DNA from: Actinomycetes bacterium
GTDB lineage: Bacteria > Actinomycetota > Acidimicrobiia > Acidimicrobiales > RAAP-2
Assembly (NCBI GenBank): GCA_021845725.1
Contig: JAJZVL010000010.1
Span: 1 to 63,657 of the forward strand
Direction of reading: 5' to 3'
Length of the DNA stretch: 63,657 nucleotides
Position 1 is the stretch's first letter; every line of letters begins with the position of its first letter. This document shows, in pieces, positions 755 to 62,402 of this stretch. The notes beneath the pieces were generated by a model that worked only from the letters and a program-made list of their open reading frames with translations, was not told where the DNA came from and ran no database searches. The position numbers were made by a program, and so were the translations under genes.

Positions 755-1705
755 GTGCCGACTGTGAGCCGGACCGCGCGTGGTGCCATTGTCGAGGTCC
801 GGGGGCTCACCAAGCGGTTCGGCTCCGTCACCGCGGTCGACGACCTGAGCTTCACCGTCGAGCCCGGACGTGTGACCGGGTTCCTCGGCCCGAACGGGGC
901 GGGGAAGACCACGACGCTGCGGATCCTGCTCGACCTCGCCTCGGCGACGTCGGGAAGCTGCTCGATCGGTGGCCGTCGCTACCGCGACATCCCCGAGCCC
1001 GCTCACCAGGTCGGGGCGGTGCTCGAGGCGACGAACTTCCACCCCTCACGGCGTGCCCGGGCACACCTCGAGATGCTCGCGATCGAGTCCGGGATCGAGC
1101 TCTCACGAATCGACCCCGTGCTCGAGCTGGTCGGCCTCACCGCTGACGCGAACCGGAAGGTCGGCGGGTACTCGCTCGGCATGCGCCAGCGGCTGCAGCT
1201 CGCGGGCGCCCTCCTCGGGGATCCCGGCGTCCTCATCCTCGACGAGCCGTCGAACGGCCTCGACCCCCAGGGGATCGCCTGGATGCGCGACCTGCTCCGT
1301 CACCTCGCCGCCGAGGGACGCACGGTCCTCATCTCCTCTCACCTCCTCGCCGAGATGGCCCAGACGGTCGACGACGTGGTGATCGTGTCACGGGGACGGC
1401 TCCGGGTGCAGGGTCCGCTCTCGCTGCTCACGAGCCAGTCCCACTCGTCGATGCGCGTGCGGACCCCCGAGCGCGACCGGCTTGCGGCGATCGCACACGC
1501 CGCCGGATATGCCCACCGACCGGAGGGGGAGGACATCCTCTTCGTCGACGGGGCAACCCCCGAGACTCTCGGGCCGCTCATCGCGTCGAACCGGGTCGTC
1601 GTCTACGAGCTCGTCCAGGTGAGCCAGGACCTCGAGAGCCTCTTCCTCGAGCTCACGACATCGATGACCGCTCGCAGGGCACCAGCCGCGGTGGCAGCGC
1701 CATGA
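755..1705 (+). CDS. ABC transporter ATP-binding protein (ABC-2 exporter family)
   Basis: This is the cytoplasmic ATPase of an export-type ABC transporter. In the 316 residues the Walker A motif GPNGAGKTT is at about 45-53, the signature YSLGMRQRL at about 139-147, Walker B VLILDEP at about 159-165, and the switch histidine in ISSHLL near 194. A C-terminal region of about 90 residues follows, as in the CcmA/DrrA-like exporter ATPases. The GTG start at 755 is chosen because it is preceded by a TANNNT -10 at leaderless spacing. The stop overlaps the permease start as ATGA, so the two are translationally coupled. The cargo cannot be read from the sequence; lipids, drugs or peptides are all possible for this family. 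Confidence 0.9.
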   Translation: MPTVSRTARGAIVEVRGLTKRFGSVTAVDDLSFTVEPGRVTGFLGPNGAGKTTTLRILLDLASATSGSCSIGGRRYRDIPEPAHQVGAVLEATNFHPSRRARAHLEMLAIESGIELSRIDPVLELVGLTADANRKVGGYSLGMRQRLQLAGALLGDPGVLILDEPSNGLDPQGIAWMRDLLRHLAAEGRTVLISSHLLAEMAQTVDDVVIVSRGRLRVQGPLSLLTSQSHSSMRVRTPERDRLAAIAHAAGYAHRPEGEDILFVDGATPETLGPLIASNRVVVYELVQVSQDLESLFLELTTSMTARRAPAAVAAP

Positions 1706-2514
1706 CGTTCTCGCCCCGGCTCGTCCGCGCGGAGCTCTTCAAGTTCCGCACCACGCCCGGCGCCTGGGTGTGCATCGGCGTGGTGCTGCTGCTCACGGGG
1801 CTCGGCATCACGACGTCGTTCATCAACGGCAGCAACGGCGTCGTGCACTTCTCCGCGCCGACGACGGTCGTGGGACTGCGTCGCCTGATGGGCGCCGGCT
1901 ACACGGCGGCGATCGTGATGGCTCCCGTGCTCGGCGTGCTGTCCATCACCACGGAGTACCGCCATCGTGTGCTCACCTCGACGCTCCTGGCCCATCCGCG
2001 CCGTGCGGACGTGCTCGGCGCGAAGGTCCTCGCCTCGGCCCTCTGGGCGCTGTTCATGGGCGTCGCGTCGTTCGTCATGATCGGCGCCATGGGGATCCCC
2101 CTGCTCCTCACCGAGGGCGGCTCGGTCTCGGCGCTGCTGCACCAGGTCGGCCCCGTCCTGCCCGGGATGCTCGCTGCCTACGTGCTCCTCGCCGTCTACG
2201 GCATGGGGATCGGCACCCTGGTGCGCAACCAGATCGCCGGGGTGATCATCGCCCTCGGGCTCACCCTCGTCCTCGAGCCCATCATCGTCGCGATCTTCAG
2301 CTCGCTCGCGCACATGGACGTGAACTTCCTCCCGACACGAGCGACGGAGGCGATCGCAGGAGGGGTGGCCGCGCGTGGACCGGGGGGCGCCGGCGCCGCG
2401 ACGACAGCCCACGTGCTCCTCAGCTGGTGGCTCGGGGCGATCGCCCTGGTCATCTGGGGTATCGGCACCGCGGTGATCGGCTACTTCACGACGTTCCGCC
2501 GCGACGTCACCTAG
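1702..2514 (+). CDS. ABC-2 type transporter permease
   Basis: Membrane partner of the ATPase encoded just upstream, with which it overlaps by 4 bases. The 270-residue protein has about six hydrophobic segments: near residues 20-42, 65-85, 105-130, 148-170, 178-200 and 240-262. That is the ABC-2 permease layout of one protein forming half of a homodimer. The text between the first two segments (about 43-64) is polar and would lie outside. Substrate unknown. It converges on the GH31 gene, leaving only 25 bases between them and no visible terminator. Confidence 0.82.
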   Translation: MTFSPRLVRAELFKFRTTPGAWVCIGVVLLLTGLGITTSFINGSNGVVHFSAPTTVVGLRRLMGAGYTAAIVMAPVLGVLSITTEYRHRVLTSTLLAHPRRADVLGAKVLASALWALFMGVASFVMIGAMGIPLLLTEGGSVSALLHQVGPVLPGMLAAYVLLAVYGMGIGTLVRNQIAGVIIALGLTLVLEPIIVAIFSSLAHMDVNFLPTRATEAIAGGVAARGPGGAGAATTAHVLLSWWLGAIALVIWGIGTAVIGYFTTFRRDVT

Positions 2515-2539: not shown

Positions 2540-5089
2540 TCAGAGGAGCTCCAGCGTCTCGAACGGCGCACACTCCACCACGGTCGCGATCGTGGTGGCG
2601 CCGCGTGGGTCCCGCTGCCGGCGCACGTCGTGGGGCACCTCGGCGCCGTCCGCACGCACGCCGGCGGCAGCCTTCCCGTGGAGGACCACCCGTACCCGCT
2701 CGGGGTCGGGATAGTCGCCGTCGCGCTCCCAGCGCAGCGTGCGCAGCCCCCCCGCACCCGGCGTCAGCGTGAACCGGTGGCGGCGGTGCGGGCCGTCGCC
2801 GTCACCTGCGTCGTCGAAGAGGGCGCCGCCCGCTCGCCCGGAGCGGTCGGGAACGCAGTGCAACGCGAGGAGCCGCGGCCGGTGGCCAGGCCCGAGCACG
2901 CCGTCGGCGTACGGACCGTCGTCGAGGGGGAGGACCGTCCCTGCCCGGATGAACACGGTGGGCGAGCCGAGGGGGGCGTCCGCGTGGACGGCGCGCTGAC
3001 GCGTCGCGGTGCCGACACGGTCCCCGTCGCCCGTCAGGGGCGACCAAGGCGCCCATTCCCCACCGGGAAGGACCACGCGCCGTCCCCGCGCGCCGGGCAT
3101 GGTGACCGGCGCGACGAGCAGCCCGTCGCCGAGCAGGAGCTCGTCGAACGACGCGGGAACGTCGACGTTCTCCGGCCAGCCGGGCGGCCGGACCAGCGGG
3201 GCCCCGGTCCGAGTCGTCTCCTCGGCGAGGGTGTAGAGGTACGGAAGGAGCCGATAACGGAACCGCACGAGCCTGCCCGCGAGCGCTCGGGCGGGCTCGG
3301 GGAGCTCCCAGGGCTCGCGGGGCGCCGCCGAGCTGACGCAGTGCGTGCGGCACAGTGGCAGGAACACGGCCAGCTCCAGCCACCGCAGGTACAGCTCGTC
3401 GGTCGGCGTTCCGGTGAACCCTCCGATGTCCGGCCCGCTGAACGGGATGCCGGACAGTCCGAGCCCGAGCACGGTCGCCACCTGCTGGCGCAACGACGCC
3501 CAGCTCGTCTCCGCGTCCCCCGTCCAGACCCAAGAAGAGCGCTGCAGGCCTGCCCATCCAGAGCGCGAGAGCACGAACGGCCGGCGATCGGGCCTCGCCG
3601 CGCGCAGCGCTGCGGCACCCGCCTCGGCCATGAGCAGCCCGTAGACGTTGTGGCAGCTGCGGTGGTCCCCTGCGGCGTGCCGGGCGTCTCGGGGCAAGGT
3701 CTGGTCCCCCCACAGGGAGAAGGACGTCGGCTCGTTCATGTCGTGCCAGACGCCGCCCACCCCGTCGTCGAGAAGCCGGCCGTAGAGGCCGCTCCACCAC
3801 CGGCGCGCATCGTCGTCGGTGAAATCGCAGAAGGCGGCGCGCCCCGGCCACACCACCCCGTGGAGCACGCCACCGTCGCGTGACCGCACGAAATGCGGCG
3901 TGCCCTGGGTGTAGACGTCGTACCCAGGGTCGGCCTTCACCCCAGGATCGACGATCGCGACCATCCGCGTCCCGGCGTCCGCGAGCTCCTCGGAGAGCCC
4001 TCGAAGACCCGCGAAGCGTTCCGTGTCCACGGTGAAGACCCGATAGCCGTCCATGTAGTCGATGTCGAGGTACAGCGCGCTGAGCGGCAGCTTTTCCTCG
4101 CGAAAGCCCTGCGCCACTTCCCGCACGCGGGCGGCGGTGGCGTAGCCCCAGCGCGACTGGTGATAGCCGAGGGCCCAGCGTGGGGGGAGGGGCGCCCGGC
4201 CGGTGAGCGACGAGTAGCGCTCGAGCACTGCTGACAGGGACCCGACGGCCAGGTGGTGCCGGAGCATCCCCGAGGCGAAGCGTGCCTCCATACGTGCCGG
4301 CCCGAGATGCGACGGCGGCCCGGAGAAGATCTCCACCTCACCTTCGGTGGGGTTCTCGAAGAAGGCCAGCACGTTGCCCGTCGGGTGCACTCCGACCACC
4401 ACCGGGACGACGCAGTAGAGCGGGTCGCTGCCCGGTCCCCATCCTCCGCCCGGATCCCGGTTCCACAGCCGGTGCCGCCCGCCGAGCGCCAGCTCGCCGG
4501 CCTGCTCGCCGAGCCCCGCGAGCACCTCCTCGGAGCGCAGGAGGTGCCGGTGCACCCAGCCCTCACCCGACCGAAGGGGGGGCAGCTCGTGGCGGAGCAC
4601 CTCACCAGCGGGCCCGAGCAGCAGGATCGAACCGTCGGTGCGGACTCGCACGGTGAGCGCGACGGTCGCCGCGCTCGGCCCACGGGGATCCGTCGTCACC
4701 TCCACGTCCCCGAAGGGTCCAGGAGGCTCGGTGAGAGGATCCGCCGCGAGCGCCCAGGGCTTCGGCGGCTCGCCCGGACCCCAGCTGATCCGCACGACGT
4801 CGTCGGCGAGGAAACGGACCTCGACGTCGGCTCGCGCGAAGCGGCACGCCACGCCGACGGGGACCGGCTCGCCCCGGCCCTGTCCGCCAGGACGACCGCC
4901 GTGCACGCGATCGGCTCCCAGCAGCTCCCCGGGGTCCCTCGGCAACAGGGAGACGGACGGATCTCGACGGGCAGCCTCCACCATCTCCACGGTGTTCCAG
5001 AGCACTTCGGCCGCCGTGCGGAGGCCGAGCCCTGAGAGGATGCGACCCGCAGCCGCGGTATGCCTGAGGGTGTGCAGGACGCGGTGCAT
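2540..5089 (-). CDS. Glycoside hydrolase family 31 (alpha-glucosidase-like)
   Basis: GH31 enzymes are retaining alpha-glycosidases (alpha-glucosidases, alpha-xylosidases). The 849 residues show an N-terminal beta-sandwich region, the conserved RWALGYHQSRWGY entry to the barrel near 305, the YLDIDYMDGYRVFTVD motif, the nucleophile Asp450 in WHDMNEP and the acid/base Asp525 in WTGDAETSW, then C-terminal beta domains. Both catalytic residues are present, so it should be active. No signal peptide is visible: the N-terminus (HRVLHTLRHTAAAGR) is not typical, so a cytosolic enzyme is likely. It starts 11 bases after the GH1-like gene stop, so the two probably form one transcript. The exact substrate cannot be read; maltodextrin or isomaltose-type sugars are typical. 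Confidence 0.88.
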   Translation of the reverse strand: MHRVLHTLRHTAAAGRILSGLGLRTAAEVLWNTVEMVEAARRDPSVSLLPRDPGELLGADRVHGGRPGGQGRGEPVPVGVACRFARADVEVRFLADDVVRISWGPGEPPKPWALAADPLTEPPGPFGDVEVTTDPRGPSAATVALTVRVRTDGSILLLGPAGEVLRHELPPLRSGEGWVHRHLLRSEEVLAGLGEQAGELALGGRHRLWNRDPGGGWGPGSDPLYCVVPVVVGVHPTGNVLAFFENPTEGEVEIFSGPPSHLGPARMEARFASGMLRHHLAVGSLSAVLERYSSLTGRAPLPPRWALGYHQSRWGYATAARVREVAQGFREEKLPLSALYLDIDYMDGYRVFTVDTERFAGLRGLSEELADAGTRMVAIVDPGVKADPGYDVYTQGTPHFVRSRDGGVLHGVVWPGRAAFCDFTDDDARRWWSGLYGRLLDDGVGGVWHDMNEPTSFSLWGDQTLPRDARHAAGDHRSCHNVYGLLMAEAGAAALRAARPDRRPFVLSRSGWAGLQRSSWVWTGDAETSWASLRQQVATVLGLGLSGIPFSGPDIGGFTGTPTDELYLRWLELAVFLPLCRTHCVSSAAPREPWELPEPARALAGRLVRFRYRLLPYLYTLAEETTRTGAPLVRPPGWPENVDVPASFDELLLGDGLLVAPVTMPGARGRRVVLPGGEWAPWSPLTGDGDRVGTATRQRAVHADAPLGSPTVFIRAGTVLPLDDGPYADGVLGPGHRPRLLALHCVPDRSGRAGGALFDDAGDGDGPHRRHRFTLTPGAGGLRTLRWERDGDYPDPERVRVVLHGKAAAGVRADGAEVPHDVRRQRDPRGATTIATVVECAPFETLELL

Positions 5090-5100
5090 CGCCGGCGAGG

Positions 5101-6498
5101 TCAGCGACGCGCCTCGACCAGGCGCCGCAGGCCCGGAGCGTCACCGCCCAGCCCGAAGTCGGCGTCCGGCCATGTGGGATCCCCACCGCCCTCGGGCGCA
5201 TGGTAGAGGTAGCCGGCGATCTGCGGCTCTGTGCCGGAGGCATCGGCCTCGAGCACGTCGGGCTGAAGCGCGCGGACCTGCGCTCGGATGTACGAGCGAC
5301 GGTCCCAGCCGTCTGCCCGAGAGGCGTCGCCGCGGGTCGCGAACCCGTCCTCCACCCACACCGGGAGCCCGGGCACGGCTTGGGCATGCTCTCGGCACCA
5401 CGCCGTGAGCGCCCCGGGGTCCGGCACGACCTCCCACGGGGGCGCCGCGCGGCCCACGAAGCCGGGGCGCGCCCGGCTGGGGAGGAGCACAGTTGCGAAC
5501 GGAGGGACCCACCCGACGAGCAGCGCATCGAGCAGGTACCGCGGCCGCGTCGAAGCCGTGGACCCGTTCAGCGCGCCCGACGCGGCATGTCGCTCGCCGG
5601 CGAGCCGGTAGGCGACGTCCAGCACGCGCCGGGGCGAAGGTCGGCGCAGCATCTTCCCGCCGAACGGCGACGTGGTGCCCGCCGCGCGCCGCCACGCGAG
5701 GTCCCCGAGGCTGGCCGGCGGCATCGTGGCATCGTGGAGCGCGCGGCGCGCGGCGATCCACGGGTCGACGGCGTCGCGCTCGATCCCCAGCGCCGGTGCG
5801 CACAGGAGGTCGACCATGAGCCGGTGCCAGTCGTAGGAGGGTGACGCCCGCAGGCCGAGGATGACGTGGGCCTCGGGATCGAGGCCGTGGATCGCGCCGT
5901 AGGCGAGCAGGTGCGCGCACAGGAGGTTGTCGACGACGGCCCATGCGTCCGCCAGGGCGCCGATGCGGCGAGGGGGGTGCCGGCCGTCGACCCACCCCGC
6001 GAGGGCGACGAGGTTCGGCTGGCGCAGCGTCACCCAGTGGTGGCAGGAGGGGGCGAGGGGTCCGACGAGTCTCACGACGTGGTCGGCGAACCGGTCGGGG
6101 GACCCCGGGGTCAGCCAGAATTCCTCGCCGAGCCAGGCCGGGTGGGCGATGTCGCAGAGGACCGCGATCGGGGTGATCCCGCCGGCGACGGCGGACGCGA
6201 AGATCGCCGCGTACCGGGCGATGGCGCGCTCGTCGACACGCCCGGGCGCAGGCTCGATCCTGGCCCATTCCACGGAGAGCGCCAGAGCATCGGCACCCGC
6301 GGCCGCGGCCAGCTCGACGACACGATCGGGGTTCGTCCACACCTCTGCGCCCACGCGAGAGGCAGGGACCTTCCCCGCACGCTCCCACGCCGTCCACTGG
6401 TTCGCCGGCTCTCCGTAGCCGTTGAACCCGCCCTCCAGCCGGTAGCCTGCGGCGCTCAGGCCGAAGAGGGGCTGGCGCACAGCACTGAAGCATGGCAC
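5101..6498 (-). CDS. Glycoside hydrolase family 1-like protein with altered acid/base residue
   Basis: The protein (about 465 residues) follows the GH1 beta-glucosidase plan: FGLSAAGYRLEGG near the N-terminus, LALSVEWARIEP (compare FSISWPRI), CDIAHPAWLG, and VWVEDGF near the end. The nucleophile glutamate is kept (Glu383, in VEDG). The TxNEP motif that carries the general acid/base glutamate reads TLRQP, with Gln160 in place of Glu. Plant myrosinases also have Gln there, so activity on substrates with a good leaving group is possible; a non-catalytic role is also possible. The start is uncertain: GTG 6498 or GTG 6480, neither with a clear ribosome site. It lies upstream of the GH31 gene in the same unit. 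Confidence 0.78.
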   Translation of the reverse strand: MPCFSAVRQPLFGLSAAGYRLEGGFNGYGEPANQWTAWERAGKVPASRVGAEVWTNPDRVVELAAAAGADALALSVEWARIEPAPGRVDERAIARYAAIFASAVAGGITPIAVLCDIAHPAWLGEEFWLTPGSPDRFADHVVRLVGPLAPSCHHWVTLRQPNLVALAGWVDGRHPPRRIGALADAWAVVDNLLCAHLLAYGAIHGLDPEAHVILGLRASPSYDWHRLMVDLLCAPALGIERDAVDPWIAARRALHDATMPPASLGDLAWRRAAGTTSPFGGKMLRRPSPRRVLDVAYRLAGERHAASGALNGSTASTRPRYLLDALLVGWVPPFATVLLPSRARPGFVGRAAPPWEVVPDPGALTAWCREHAQAVPGLPVWVEDGFATRGDASRADGWDRRSYIRAQVRALQPDVLEADASGTEPQIAGYLYHAPEGGGDPTWPDADFGLGGDAPGLRRLVEARR

Positions 6499-6666: not shown

Positions 6667-7440
6667 ATGGCAGACGAGGTCTTGAGAGAGCGGCGGGGCA
6701 ACGTGGAGATCCTCACGATCAATCGCCCCGACGCTCGCAACGCGATCAACGGCGCCGTGAGCAGTGCTCTCGCCTCGGCGTTGGACGAGCTCGCCGAAGA
6801 CGAGGGTGCGTGGGTCGTCGTGCTCACCGGGAGCGGTGACAAGGCCTTCTCCGCAGGGTTGGACCTGAAGGCGTTCGCAGCCGGCGAGAGCGCGGAGGTC
6901 TTGAACGCGCCCGGTGGCTTCGCCGGGATCGCCCGCCGGAGCTTCCCCAAGCCGATCGTCGCGGCCGTCAACGGGGCAGCGCTGGCCGGCGGCCTCGAGA
7001 TCATGCTGTCGTGCGATCTGGTGGTCGCCGCCGACCATGCGACCTTCGGGATCCCAGAGGTCAAGCGCGGGCTTGTCGCAGGTGCCGGCGGCCTCTTCCG
7101 GCTCCCCAGACGCCTGCCGCTCTCGGTCGCGCTCGAGCTCGCCTTGACCGGCGACCCGATCGACGCCGACCGTGCGTACGCCCTGGGTCTCGTCAACCGC
7201 ATCGTGCCCCGACACCAGCTCATGGAGGAGGCGCTGGTCCTCGCCGAGCGGATCGCGGAGAACGCCCCGCTGGCCGTCCGCTACTCGAAGTCCGTCATGT
7301 TGCGTGCCGTCGACGCCGACGAGGCCGAAGGCTGGCGCCTCACGGACGACGCGGTAGGGGTGGTCTTCAGCTCCTCGGATGCCATGGAGGGCTCCGTCGC
7401 CTTCGCCGAGAAGCGCAAGCCCAAGTGGCAGGGGCGCTGA
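6667..7440 (+). CDS. Enoyl-CoA hydratase/isomerase (crotonase) family protein
   Basis: Crotonase-fold enzymes act on acyl-CoA thioesters, typically hydrating trans-2-enoyl-CoA in beta-oxidation. The 257 residues have the expected length. Visible are the first oxyanion-hole segment around AFSAGLDLKAFA (about 59-70), the second in AAVNGAALAGGLE (about 99-111), and the family block CDLVVAADHATFGIPEVKRG with Glu at one of the usual catalytic positions. A good ribosome site (GGAAGGAG) precedes the ATG. It is a single gene, with no other fatty-acid genes nearby, so its pathway is not indicated. It ends in EKRKPKWQGR, a tail common in this family. Confidence 0.9.
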   Translation: MADEVLRERRGNVEILTINRPDARNAINGAVSSALASALDELAEDEGAWVVVLTGSGDKAFSAGLDLKAFAAGESAEVLNAPGGFAGIARRSFPKPIVAAVNGAALAGGLEIMLSCDLVVAADHATFGIPEVKRGLVAGAGGLFRLPRRLPLSVALELALTGDPIDADRAYALGLVNRIVPRHQLMEEALVLAERIAENAPLAVRYSKSVMLRAVDADEAEGWRLTDDAVGVVFSSSDAMEGSVAFAEKRKPKWQGR

Positions 7441-7761: not shown

Positions 7762-7909
7762 CCCCCTAGCCAAGCGTTCGAGGCCTCTTTCTCGGGCGCT
7801 CCGGGGCGTGTCCATCGCACATGGAGGTCCTCCCGCGTGCGCCGGGCCCAGCCGTCCACAAGTTGGCACGCCCTTGACCTGCGACTTCGAATTTCCGCGG
7901 CGGTTTGGC

Positions 7910-7915
7910 TAGTCT
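7910..7915 (+). promoter_or_regulatory. -10 box TAGTCT of the ctaCDF operon
   Basis: TAGTCT lies 8 bases before the GTG chosen for ctaC, with no Shine-Dalgarno sequence between them, consistent with a leaderless transcript. TTCGAA at 7886-7891 is a poor -35 candidate at 18 bases. Confidence 0.4.
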
Positions 7916-7923
7916 CCCAGATC

Positions 7924-8826
7924 GTGGATCAGTCGCCGTCAGGCAGCCCTTCCGTCGCGTCCGCGCCGGGACCGGCACCCGCGCCCACCAGCTCGTCTCC
8001 GCAGCCCGCCCGGCACCGCCCGCGCTGGCTCGTCGCCCTCGTGGTGACCGCGGGCGGGTTGCTCCTGGCGGGCTGCAACCTGCCCACCTTCGGGGCGCAC
8101 AGGGCGATCTCCACGCAGGGACAGGACTCCATGAAGCTCTGGCAGGGCTTCTTCATCACCGGCGTGACGATCCTCGTGATCGTCTTCGCGCTGATCATGT
8201 GGGCGGTGTTCCGGTACCGGCGGCGCTCGGAGGCGATCCCGCGGCAGTTCCAGTACCACACGCTTATCGAGATCATCTACACGGCGATCCCGATCGTCAT
8301 CGTGCTCATCTTGTTCGGGTTCACCTTCGTGACCGAGAACAACGTCGACGCGCTGCCCAAGCCGAAGATATCGGTGACCGTCACCGGGTTCCAGTGGGGC
8401 TGGCGGTTCCACTACACAACAAAGCACGTCACAGTCATCGGCGTCGAGCTGCAGGACCCTGAGATGGTCCTGCCGGAGAACGAGACGGTGCGGATCTACC
8501 TCGAGTCCCATGACGTCATCCACGGCTTCTACGTCCCCGCTCTCATCTTCAGCCGCTACGCGCAGCCGGGCATCATCAACAAGTTCACGCTGAACCTCCA
8601 TACGCTCGGCACCTTCCGCGGGCAGTGCACCCAGTTCTGCGGGCTCTACCACTCCCTCATGCGCTTCCGGCTGAAAGTCGTGACCCCGGCGCAGTTCGCC
8701 GCCTGGGTCAGCGCTCACCAGTCCACAGGGCCCGAGGCGTCGATCTCGAACGCCGAGAAGACTGCGCTCGCGAGATCGACCGGCCACGCCACGCCGACAA
8801 CGACGACAGGGGGTGCAGGCTCGTGA
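7924..8826 (+). CDS. ctaC: Cytochrome c oxidase subunit II (CuA subunit)
   Basis: Subunit II accepts electrons from the bcc complex at its binuclear CuA site, outside the membrane. The 300 residues start with a signal segment ending in a lipobox (LLLAGCN), suggesting a lipid-anchored mature N-terminus, then two membrane helices (about 75-97 and 115-137). The CuA domain follows with SHDVIHGFY and [14 protein letters not shown], so the His, two Cys, His and Met ligands are present. The residue between the cysteines is Gln instead of the usual Glu. The GTG at 7924 is chosen from the -10 box and because it leaves a sensible signal peptide. The stop overlaps ctaD by 4 bases. Confidence 0.92.
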
Positions 8827-10646
8827 CCGACGTCATCGTTCCGCAGATCGTCGGCGGGGAGCCCGCCTACGCCGTCCACGAAGAGCACGGGCCGACCGGG
8901 CTCATGAAGTGGATCACGACCACCGACCACAAGGTGATCGGCCTCAGCTACATGATCACCTCGATCGTGCTCTTCTACGTCGCGGGCCTGCTCGCCCTCG
9001 GCATCCGGGTGCAGCTCACGACACCCCACGGCACGTTCATCTCGTTCCAGCAGTACAACGAGCTGTTCACGATGCACGGCAGCATCATGATGTACCTCTT
9101 CGCCGGCCCGTTCGCGTTCGGTGGCCTCGCGAACTACATCGTCCCCCTGCAGATCGGCGCGCCGGACATGGCGTTCCCCAGGCTGAACGCACTCAGCTAC
9201 TGGCTGTACCTGGGCGGCTCGATCATGATGCTGCTGACCTTCGGAGTGGCAGGTGGCGCGGCGGACTTCGGCTGGGTCGCGTACGCGCCATTGTCGACCA
9301 CGACCTACACGCCCGGGATCGGCGCAGATCTGTGGATCATGGCGCTCGTGCTGACCGGGTTCTCTGCGATCTTCACCGGCGTGAACCTGATCACGACGAT
9401 CTTCTACCTGCGCGCCCCGGGCATGACCATGTTCCGGATGCCGATCTTCACGTGGAACATGCTGGTGACCGGGATCCTCATCCTCATCGCGTTCCCGGTG
9501 CTCACCGCTGCGCTGGTCCTCTTGTTCGCCGACCGCCACTTCGGGGCGAAGATCTATGCGGTCACGGGATGCCATACCGTCACCGGTGCAGTGGACGTCC
9601 ATGCCTGTGGGTCCGCGGTGCTGTGGCAGAACCTGTTCTGGTTCTTCGGTCATCCCGAGGTCTACATCCTCGCGCTGCCGTTCTTCGGCATCGTGACCGA
9701 GATCCTCCCGGTCTTCTCGAAGAAGCCCGTCTTCGGTTACAAGGGCATGGTCTTCGCCACCATGTCCATTGCAGCGCTCTCGACGGGCGTGTGGGCCCAC
9801 CACATGTTCACGACCGGCACCGTGCTGCTGCCGTTCTTCTCGCTGATGAGCCTCCTCATCGCGGTGCCGACCGGCATCAAGTTCTTCAACTGGATCGGCA
9901 CCATGTGGAGGGGCCAGCTCGTCTACACGACGCCGATGCTCATGTCGATCGGCTTCCTTCTCGCATTCCTCATGGGCGGGGTCACCGGCGTGATGCTCGC
10001 ATCACCGCCGATCGACTTCTTCGTCCACACAACGTACTTCGTCGTCGCGCACTTCCATCAGGTCCTCTTCGGAACCGCCGTCTTCGCCGGCTTCGCCGGG
10101 CTCTACTACTGGTACCCGAAGATGTTCGGCCGCATGTTGAACGACCGGCTGGGCAAGCTGCACTTCTGGCTCATGTTCGTCGGGTTCTGGGTGACCTACA
10201 TCCCCATGTACGTCCTGGGGCTCTCGGGCATGCCGCGGCGCGTCGCGAGCTACCCGACCGGGCTCGGCTGGCGGATGTGGAACGACGTCTCGACGGTCGG
10301 CTCCTTCATGATCGCGGTGTCGTTCCTGATCCTGCTCGTGAACCTCTGGGTCTCCTGGCGCTACCCGGTCCCGGCCGGCGACAACCCGTGGGACGGGCAC
10401 ACGCTCGAGTGGTTCACGACGTCGCCGCCCCCCCACCACAACTACACCCACCTCCCCGTCATCCGCTCGGAGCGGCCGACCTGGGACTACAACCACCCCG
10501 ACGCGCCCAACATCCCCATCCACGGCGACCGGGGCGGGGGAACGCACCCCAACGGGCACGGCCCCTACGGCAACGGCAACGGCACGGGCTCACCTGGGCA
10601 CGGTGACGGCGCCTCAGGCGCTGCAGAGGAGGTGCCGGCGACGTGA
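8823..10646 (+). CDS. ctaD: Cytochrome c oxidase subunit I
   Basis: Subunit I holds haem a, haem a3 and CuB and reduces oxygen while pumping protons. The 607 residues give the usual 12-helix protein. Visible are the D-channel region [11 protein letters not shown], the active site [17 protein letters not shown] with the pumping glutamate and the crosslinked His/Tyr pair, the CuB histidines in WAHHMF, the K-channel lysine in VPTGIKFF and the haem histidines in [11 protein letters not shown]. This is an A1-type haem-copper oxidase. The C-terminal 60 residues are Gly/His/Pro-rich and polar. The GTG at 8823 overlaps the ctaC stop, and the stop overlaps ctaF. Confidence 0.95.
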
Positions 10647-62240: not shown

Positions 62241-62313
62241 GGGCCGCTAGCTCATCGGGTAGAGCAGGGGACTTTTAATCCCAAGGTGCCGGGATCGAGA
62301 CCCGGGCGGCCCA
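62241..62313 (+). tRNA. tRNA-Lys (anticodon TTT)
   Basis: A full cloverleaf: acceptor GGGCCGC/GCGGCCC, D stem GCTC/GAGC, anticodon loop CTTTTAA with TTT at the middle, T stem CCGGG/CCCGG around ATCGAGA. The anticodon stem has one mismatch at its outer end. CCA is not encoded. It reads lysine codons AAA (and AAG by wobble). Confidence 0.94.
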
Positions 62314-62402
62314 CCTCCCCTCGAGCGTCGGGGCCTGCGACATGAGAGACTCCCGCCGGCGCGGCGCGTGGGCGCGGTGCTCGACTCGCGGAGGTGCGAC
62401 CG

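Follow-up and report, generated by a model that had tools for sequence, protein, structure and literature searches.

A GH1-fold protein with a largely replaced active site at a conserved locus of Acidimicrobiales is probably a pseudoenzyme

What does a bacterium retain in a glycoside hydrolase family 1 (GH1) protein that lacks its acid/base glutamate? This question is raised by a gene of an Actinomycetes bacterium (Acidimicrobiales, RAAP-2) within the window, by which we mean the whole stretch of 63,657 nucleotides that was analyzed (contig JAJZVL010000010.1 of assembly GCA_021845725.1). The sequence-only reading of this gene had described TLRQP in place of TxNEP, with Gln160 for the acid/base Glu and Glu383 of VEDG kept, and had proposed a protein that either acts on activated glycosides as plant myrosinases do or is non-catalytic, paired with a GH31 gene in a two-enzyme sugar module. 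The features considered below are as follows.

5101-6498, minus strand: GH1-like protein, 465 aa, GTG start; Gln160 in the acid/base column, Glu383 in the nucleophile column
6016-6030, minus strand: TLRQP codons (T157-L158-R159-Q160-P161), counted from the GTG at 6498
5344-5355, minus strand: VEDG codons (V382-E383-D384-G385), counted from the GTG at 6498
2540-5089, minus strand: GH31 alpha-glucosidase-like protein, 849 aa, carrying the motifs WHDMNE and WTGD; begins 11 bases past the GH1-like stop
6667-7440, plus strand: gene of the crotonase/enoyl-CoA hydratase family, oriented away from the GH1-like gene; marks the conserved locus
7837-10646, plus strand: genes that we take, from their sequence features, to encode cytochrome c oxidase subunits II and I (coxB, coxA); conserved flank
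755-2514, plus strand: presumably an ABC transporter ATPase and permease, judging by sequence; other conserved flank

Gene boundaries and fold

The GH1-like open reading frame runs from the GTG at 6498 to a stop that ends at 5101. A 704-aa version extending to 7215, antisense through the enoyl-CoA hydratase gene, was rejected as a chance extension because the orthologue starts coincide with a matching PC(F/H)xA...VRQ stretch of the window protein.

The Pfam Glyco_hydro_1 model (PF00232) matched above its cut-off over residues 15-222 only (58.8 bits), and the top sequence matches to solved structures, which are all listed as beta-glucosidase or a related glycosidase, end near residue 226. The protein scored below the cut-offs of five NCBIfam models among the matches listed. 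A RecC_C Pfam match at residues 253-325 (E 0.003) was under its cut-off and was treated as chance. An AlphaFold model built from 17 aligned sequences (mean pLDDT 73, pTM 0.83) has eight strands in barrel order, with low confidence at residues 18-39, which include Arg20, and 333-349. GH1 structures topped the fold search, and VIA-align gave Z of 27-29 to GH1 enzymes over model residues 6-465. Because the model and these Z values span residues 6-465, the C-terminal half is predicted to be a GH1 barrel still, diverged past the reach of single-sequence searches. The domain match, strand order, and structural alignment together place the protein in GH1 by fold and descent.

Replacement of the active-site residues

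We aligned 78 distinct relatives and used 47 intact rows for conservation, a set from which the canonical GH1 row L114 was excluded. TLRQP aligned without gaps to the T(I/V/L)NEP or NEI of the relatives, anchored by W155, T157, and N162. Gln160 fell in the acid/base column and Glu383 of VEDG in the nucleophile column, and a check for an alternative acid/base glutamate placed no other Glu in the acid/base column. These alignments confirm the residue assignments of the sequence-only reading: of the two glutamates of a retaining GH1 glycosidase, the window protein has the nucleophile and lacks the acid/base residue of T-x-N-E-P.

Across the 47 intact rows, 95 columns were at least 95% conserved. 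The subclade carrying RQP (12 rows from 11 genomes) retained 51 of these columns, while 23 were replaced by another fixed residue, defined as the same residue in at least 80% of the subclade rows, and 21 were variable. Most of the active site is among the changed columns: Gln20 has become Arg, Arg73 Ala, His116 Asp, Asn159 Arg, Glu160 Gln, Asn384 Asp, Glu440 Asp, and Trp441 Pro, and Tyr331 and Trp433 are variable; the invariant residues kept include EGGxNG, E77-W78, R80, W128, and P175-P176. We take Arg73 and Trp433 to be active-site positions, and the GH1 arginine at position 73 supports the nucleophile. Among ten glycone and catalytic positions, Glu383 alone was retained (1/10 versus 50/85 of the other columns; Fisher p 0.005); the Gln160 change is one among about ten in this pocket.

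Section 2.6 of PMC12369401 describes Streptomyces griseus SGR_2426 as binding glucose in the -1 subsite via Gln, His, Asn, Tyr, Gln, and Trp. When the set was restricted to the six -1 residues named there, assigned to columns by motif and not by aligning SGR_2426, plus the two catalytic glutamates, retention was 1/8 versus 50/87 (p 0.023). At the Gln/His/Asn/Tyr/Glu-Gln/Trp positions of the -1 subsite stand R20, D116, R159, a variable residue 331, D440, and P441. The window protein therefore shares with GH1 beta-glucosidases such as Thermotoga maritima beta-glucosidase A and SGR_2426 the whole (beta/alpha)8 fold, the nucleophile Glu column, and the Glyco_hydro_1 match on the N-terminal half, whereas other residues stand in place of the acid/base Glu and of nearly the whole -1 subsite.

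The substituted pocket is itself partly conserved. Arg20, Asp116, Arg159, Gln160, Glu383, and Asp384 were fixed in the RQP subclade, but only 6 of the 11 inspected pocket positions were fully conserved there, versus 140 of 453 columns overall. These counts are suggestive, short of proof, of selection on the new pocket itself.

The genus, the locus, and the history of the losses

The GH1-like gene occurs in all 13 genomes of the window's genus with no stop within the matches. One PF00232 match was found in 12 of these genomes, and the other (G007) has the C-terminal part only, at a contig end. The acid/base column holds Gln in 12 (RQP in 11, LQP in one) and Arg in one (LRP), so that Glu is absent from all 13. 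RQP as a sequencing error was ruled out because it recurs in 11 of the 13 genomes and the others read LQP and LRP. The nucleophile column holds Glu in 11 genomes, His in one, and Gln in one; the two genomes without Glu are the two with Leu159, and all 11 with Glu have Arg159. This co-occurrence is compatible with a structural Arg159-Glu383 pair and is weak evidence for it, because it reflects a single split in the tree. Two lost rows of genus g18 (L051 and L097, from G029 and G042) have Arg at the Asn159 column (FRAPN) and no nucleophile Glu, possibly through a parallel change. No second GH1 was found in the window's genus, nor any other GH1 match in the window's own genome. An order-wide search of 298 genomes at E <= 1e-95 returned only the own genome, a limit too strict to bear on distant lost members.

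Against the two nearest orthologues, the GH1-like gene gave dN/dS of 0.32 and 0.29. The controls gave 0.25/0.22 for GH31, 0.07/0.08 for enoyl-CoA hydratase, and 0.29/0.27 for coxB, and the GH1-like values are thus of the same order as those of GH31 and coxB. For the GH1-like gene, shadow frames on the same strand gave 1.46-1.91; one antisense frame gave 0.37-0.46, a dip seen in every control gene and presumably due to a degenerate position shared with the true frame. With dN/dS near 0.3, the GH1-like gene is under purifying selection. Eight within-genus pairs ranged from 0.26 to 0.41 and seven intact pairs with defined dS from 0.13 to 0.23, a rough comparison given the unequal divergence of the pairs. 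Two lost pairs, from g18 and g10, had values of 0.20 and 0.12, and saturation affected one further pair of each kind, intact and lost. Since the genus values lie above those of intact pairs, constraint in the genus appears relaxed yet present.

One gene order is found repeatedly in different genera: coxA-coxB-(others)-enoyl-CoA hydratase, an opposite-strand GH1, (DedA, DoxX/Rieske-type) alpha/beta-hydrolase, GH31, and ABC genes. GH31 and the hydratase were named from Pfam/NCBIfam, and the remaining names (DedA, DoxX/Rieske-type, alpha/beta-hydrolase, cox, and ABC) are putative, given by sequence features. The locus carries an intact GH1 in, for example, G013, G023, G027, G053, G060, and G016. 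The copy there is a lost one throughout the window's genus, as well as in G019, G022, G029, G042, G036, G054, G039, G021, G030, and G038; the last six of these have an intact GH1 elsewhere in addition to the lost locus copy. Outside the locus are the lost row L096 (G069) and some intact rows (e.g., L011, L015, L131, L132, and L136).

The proposed module with GH31 did not hold up as a fixed pairing. GH31 was detected in 5 of the 13 genus genomes, immediately after the GH1-like gene in four, and therefore the GH1-like gene persists without it. In six genus genomes the contig continues beyond the GH1-like gene with no GH31 adjacent. Completeness of the genus genomes is 58-93%, and two at its upper end, G008 (93%) and G003 (90%), are still without GH31. 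The eight genus genomes in which GH31 was not found contrast with other genera, where it is present at the locus. In the window, GH31 is the sole GH31 match of its genome and matches alpha-glucosidase models under their cut-offs; we take its WHDMNE and WTGD motifs to carry the catalytic Asp residues.

A careful tree of 75 rows, from which L016, L077, and L115 were dropped as short, split 25 lost locus rows from the other 50 with support of 100/92 and placed L117 and L096 as additional, separate losses. In a quick rooted tree (SH-aLRT only, 12 canonical GH1 rows as outgroup, with L009, L010, and L017 also dropped), 23 lost rows formed one side of a single branch. The trees support one old loss, with copies that would now reside in at least seven genera (g1, g6, g8, g10, g11, g18, and g19), plus the two separate losses; inner placements are unsure because of long branches (L112, L108, L053, and L096). 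L117 (G106:C22, genus g15) has THGA for TxNEP, keeps AEDG, lies near an enoyl-CoA hydratase gene, and has intact close relatives. L096 (G069:C127, family f10) shows DQLN and GVDG in these columns, and the usual locus markers were absent within the 16 kb inspected.

Candidate functions of the GH1-like protein

We consider it likely that the window protein is a GH1-fold pseudoenzyme, the product of an old loss at this locus, whose rebuilt pocket binds a ligand or partner without glycosidic cleavage. This best reading rests on residues, fold, locus, and selection, from which we infer inactivity. The non-catalytic option of the sequence-only reading is thereby supported, with nearly the whole -1 subsite replaced, the acid/base Glu absent from 13 of 13 genomes, and the nucleophile lost from 2 of 13. 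Because the active site is nearly all lost yet the genus keeps the gene under selection, the protein probably has a different, non-cutting job. Counted against a pseudoenzyme are the nucleophile Glu kept in 11 of the 13 genomes and a constraint weaker than in intact pairs.

A new enzyme activity, in which the fixed Arg/Asp/Gln/Glu set would act on a different and probably anionic substrate, is improbable in our assessment. The fixation of the substituted residues in the RQP subclade and the purifying selection on the gene are consistent with it, but the residue set is not common to the LQP and LRP members or to the lost members of other genera, and a scan of the conserved neighborhood found no gene pointing to a substrate.

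Still less probable is myrosinase-like catalysis, in which Glu383 would form the glycosyl-enzyme and thio- or aryl-glycosides with good leaving groups would be cut with an outside base. Plant myrosinases also have Gln in the acid/base column, and they retain the rest of the -1 subsite. In the window protein, by contrast, substitution extends to the Gln, His, Asn, Tyr, Glu, and Trp of the -1 subsite, position 73 holds Ala and not the Arg that supports the nucleophile, and two genus members lack the nucleophile altogether. We reject this as the main reading because the remainder of the -1 subsite has been lost, and with it falls the proposal of action on activated glycosides. The likeness lies in the two catalytic columns, with Gln in one and Glu in the other; in Arabidopsis thaliana myrosinases, Gln likewise takes the place of one catalytic Glu of the pair (PMC9632345).

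Slow decay of a functionless gene, although in keeping with many changed invariant positions and a dN/dS above that of intact relatives, is highly implausible because dN/dS is about 0.3 while the shadow frames of the same strand lie well above 1, and because all 13 genomes retain the gene; moreover, the barrel is preserved and lost members persist in at least seven genera.

For the pseudoenzyme, a possible course of events begins with a catalytically intact GH1 beta-glycosidase-like protein at the cox/enoyl-CoA hydratase locus in an ancestor within this Acidimicrobiia family, as position and tree support. One lineage would then have lost the residues of retaining-glycosidase chemistry and kept the gene, in line with the residue losses and purifying selection, and in the window's genus the pocket would have been rebuilt with Arg20, Asp116, Arg159, Gln160, Glu383, and Asp384. 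Glu383 would no longer be a nucleophile and may instead pair with the newly gained Arg20 and Arg159, so that the former -1 site is filled or its charge is altered. Counted against such pairing are L117, with Glu in the nucleophile column and without the new arginines, and the g18 rows, with Arg and without Glu. In outline, the protein would bind either a partner protein or some ligand that may be anionic, and cut no glycosidic bond.

The best-known GH1 pseudoenzymes are the animal Klothos, which likewise have a GH1 fold with catalytic Glu lost. In beta-Klotho, an animal receptor, two GH1-like domains lie in tandem and each has one Glu replaced, whereas the window protein is bacterial and single-domain with most of the pocket replaced; the likeness is not a claim that the losses share descent. 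Beta-Klotho is taken as non-catalytic (PMC10229096). More speculatively, the old bacterial lineage beside the cox and hydratase genes could be a counterpart of Klotho, a ligand sensor or partner binder with its pocket rebuilt differently in each genus. A search of open-access titles and abstract beginnings found no paper on a bacterial GH1 pseudoenzyme or on this locus. Related genera carry intact and inactive versions at one shared locus and so offer a natural enzyme-to-non-enzyme series, and such proteins should not be annotated as beta-glucosidases.

Two minor observations complete the analysis. A very divergent GH1-like protein (L147; G099:C10:87300-90300), in which searches for NEP and ENG patterns found none, fell among the lost rows on a branch of 4.2 and was excluded from the quick rooted tree. 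A tRNA-Lys (TTT) at 62241-62315 was the sole tRNA found in the window.
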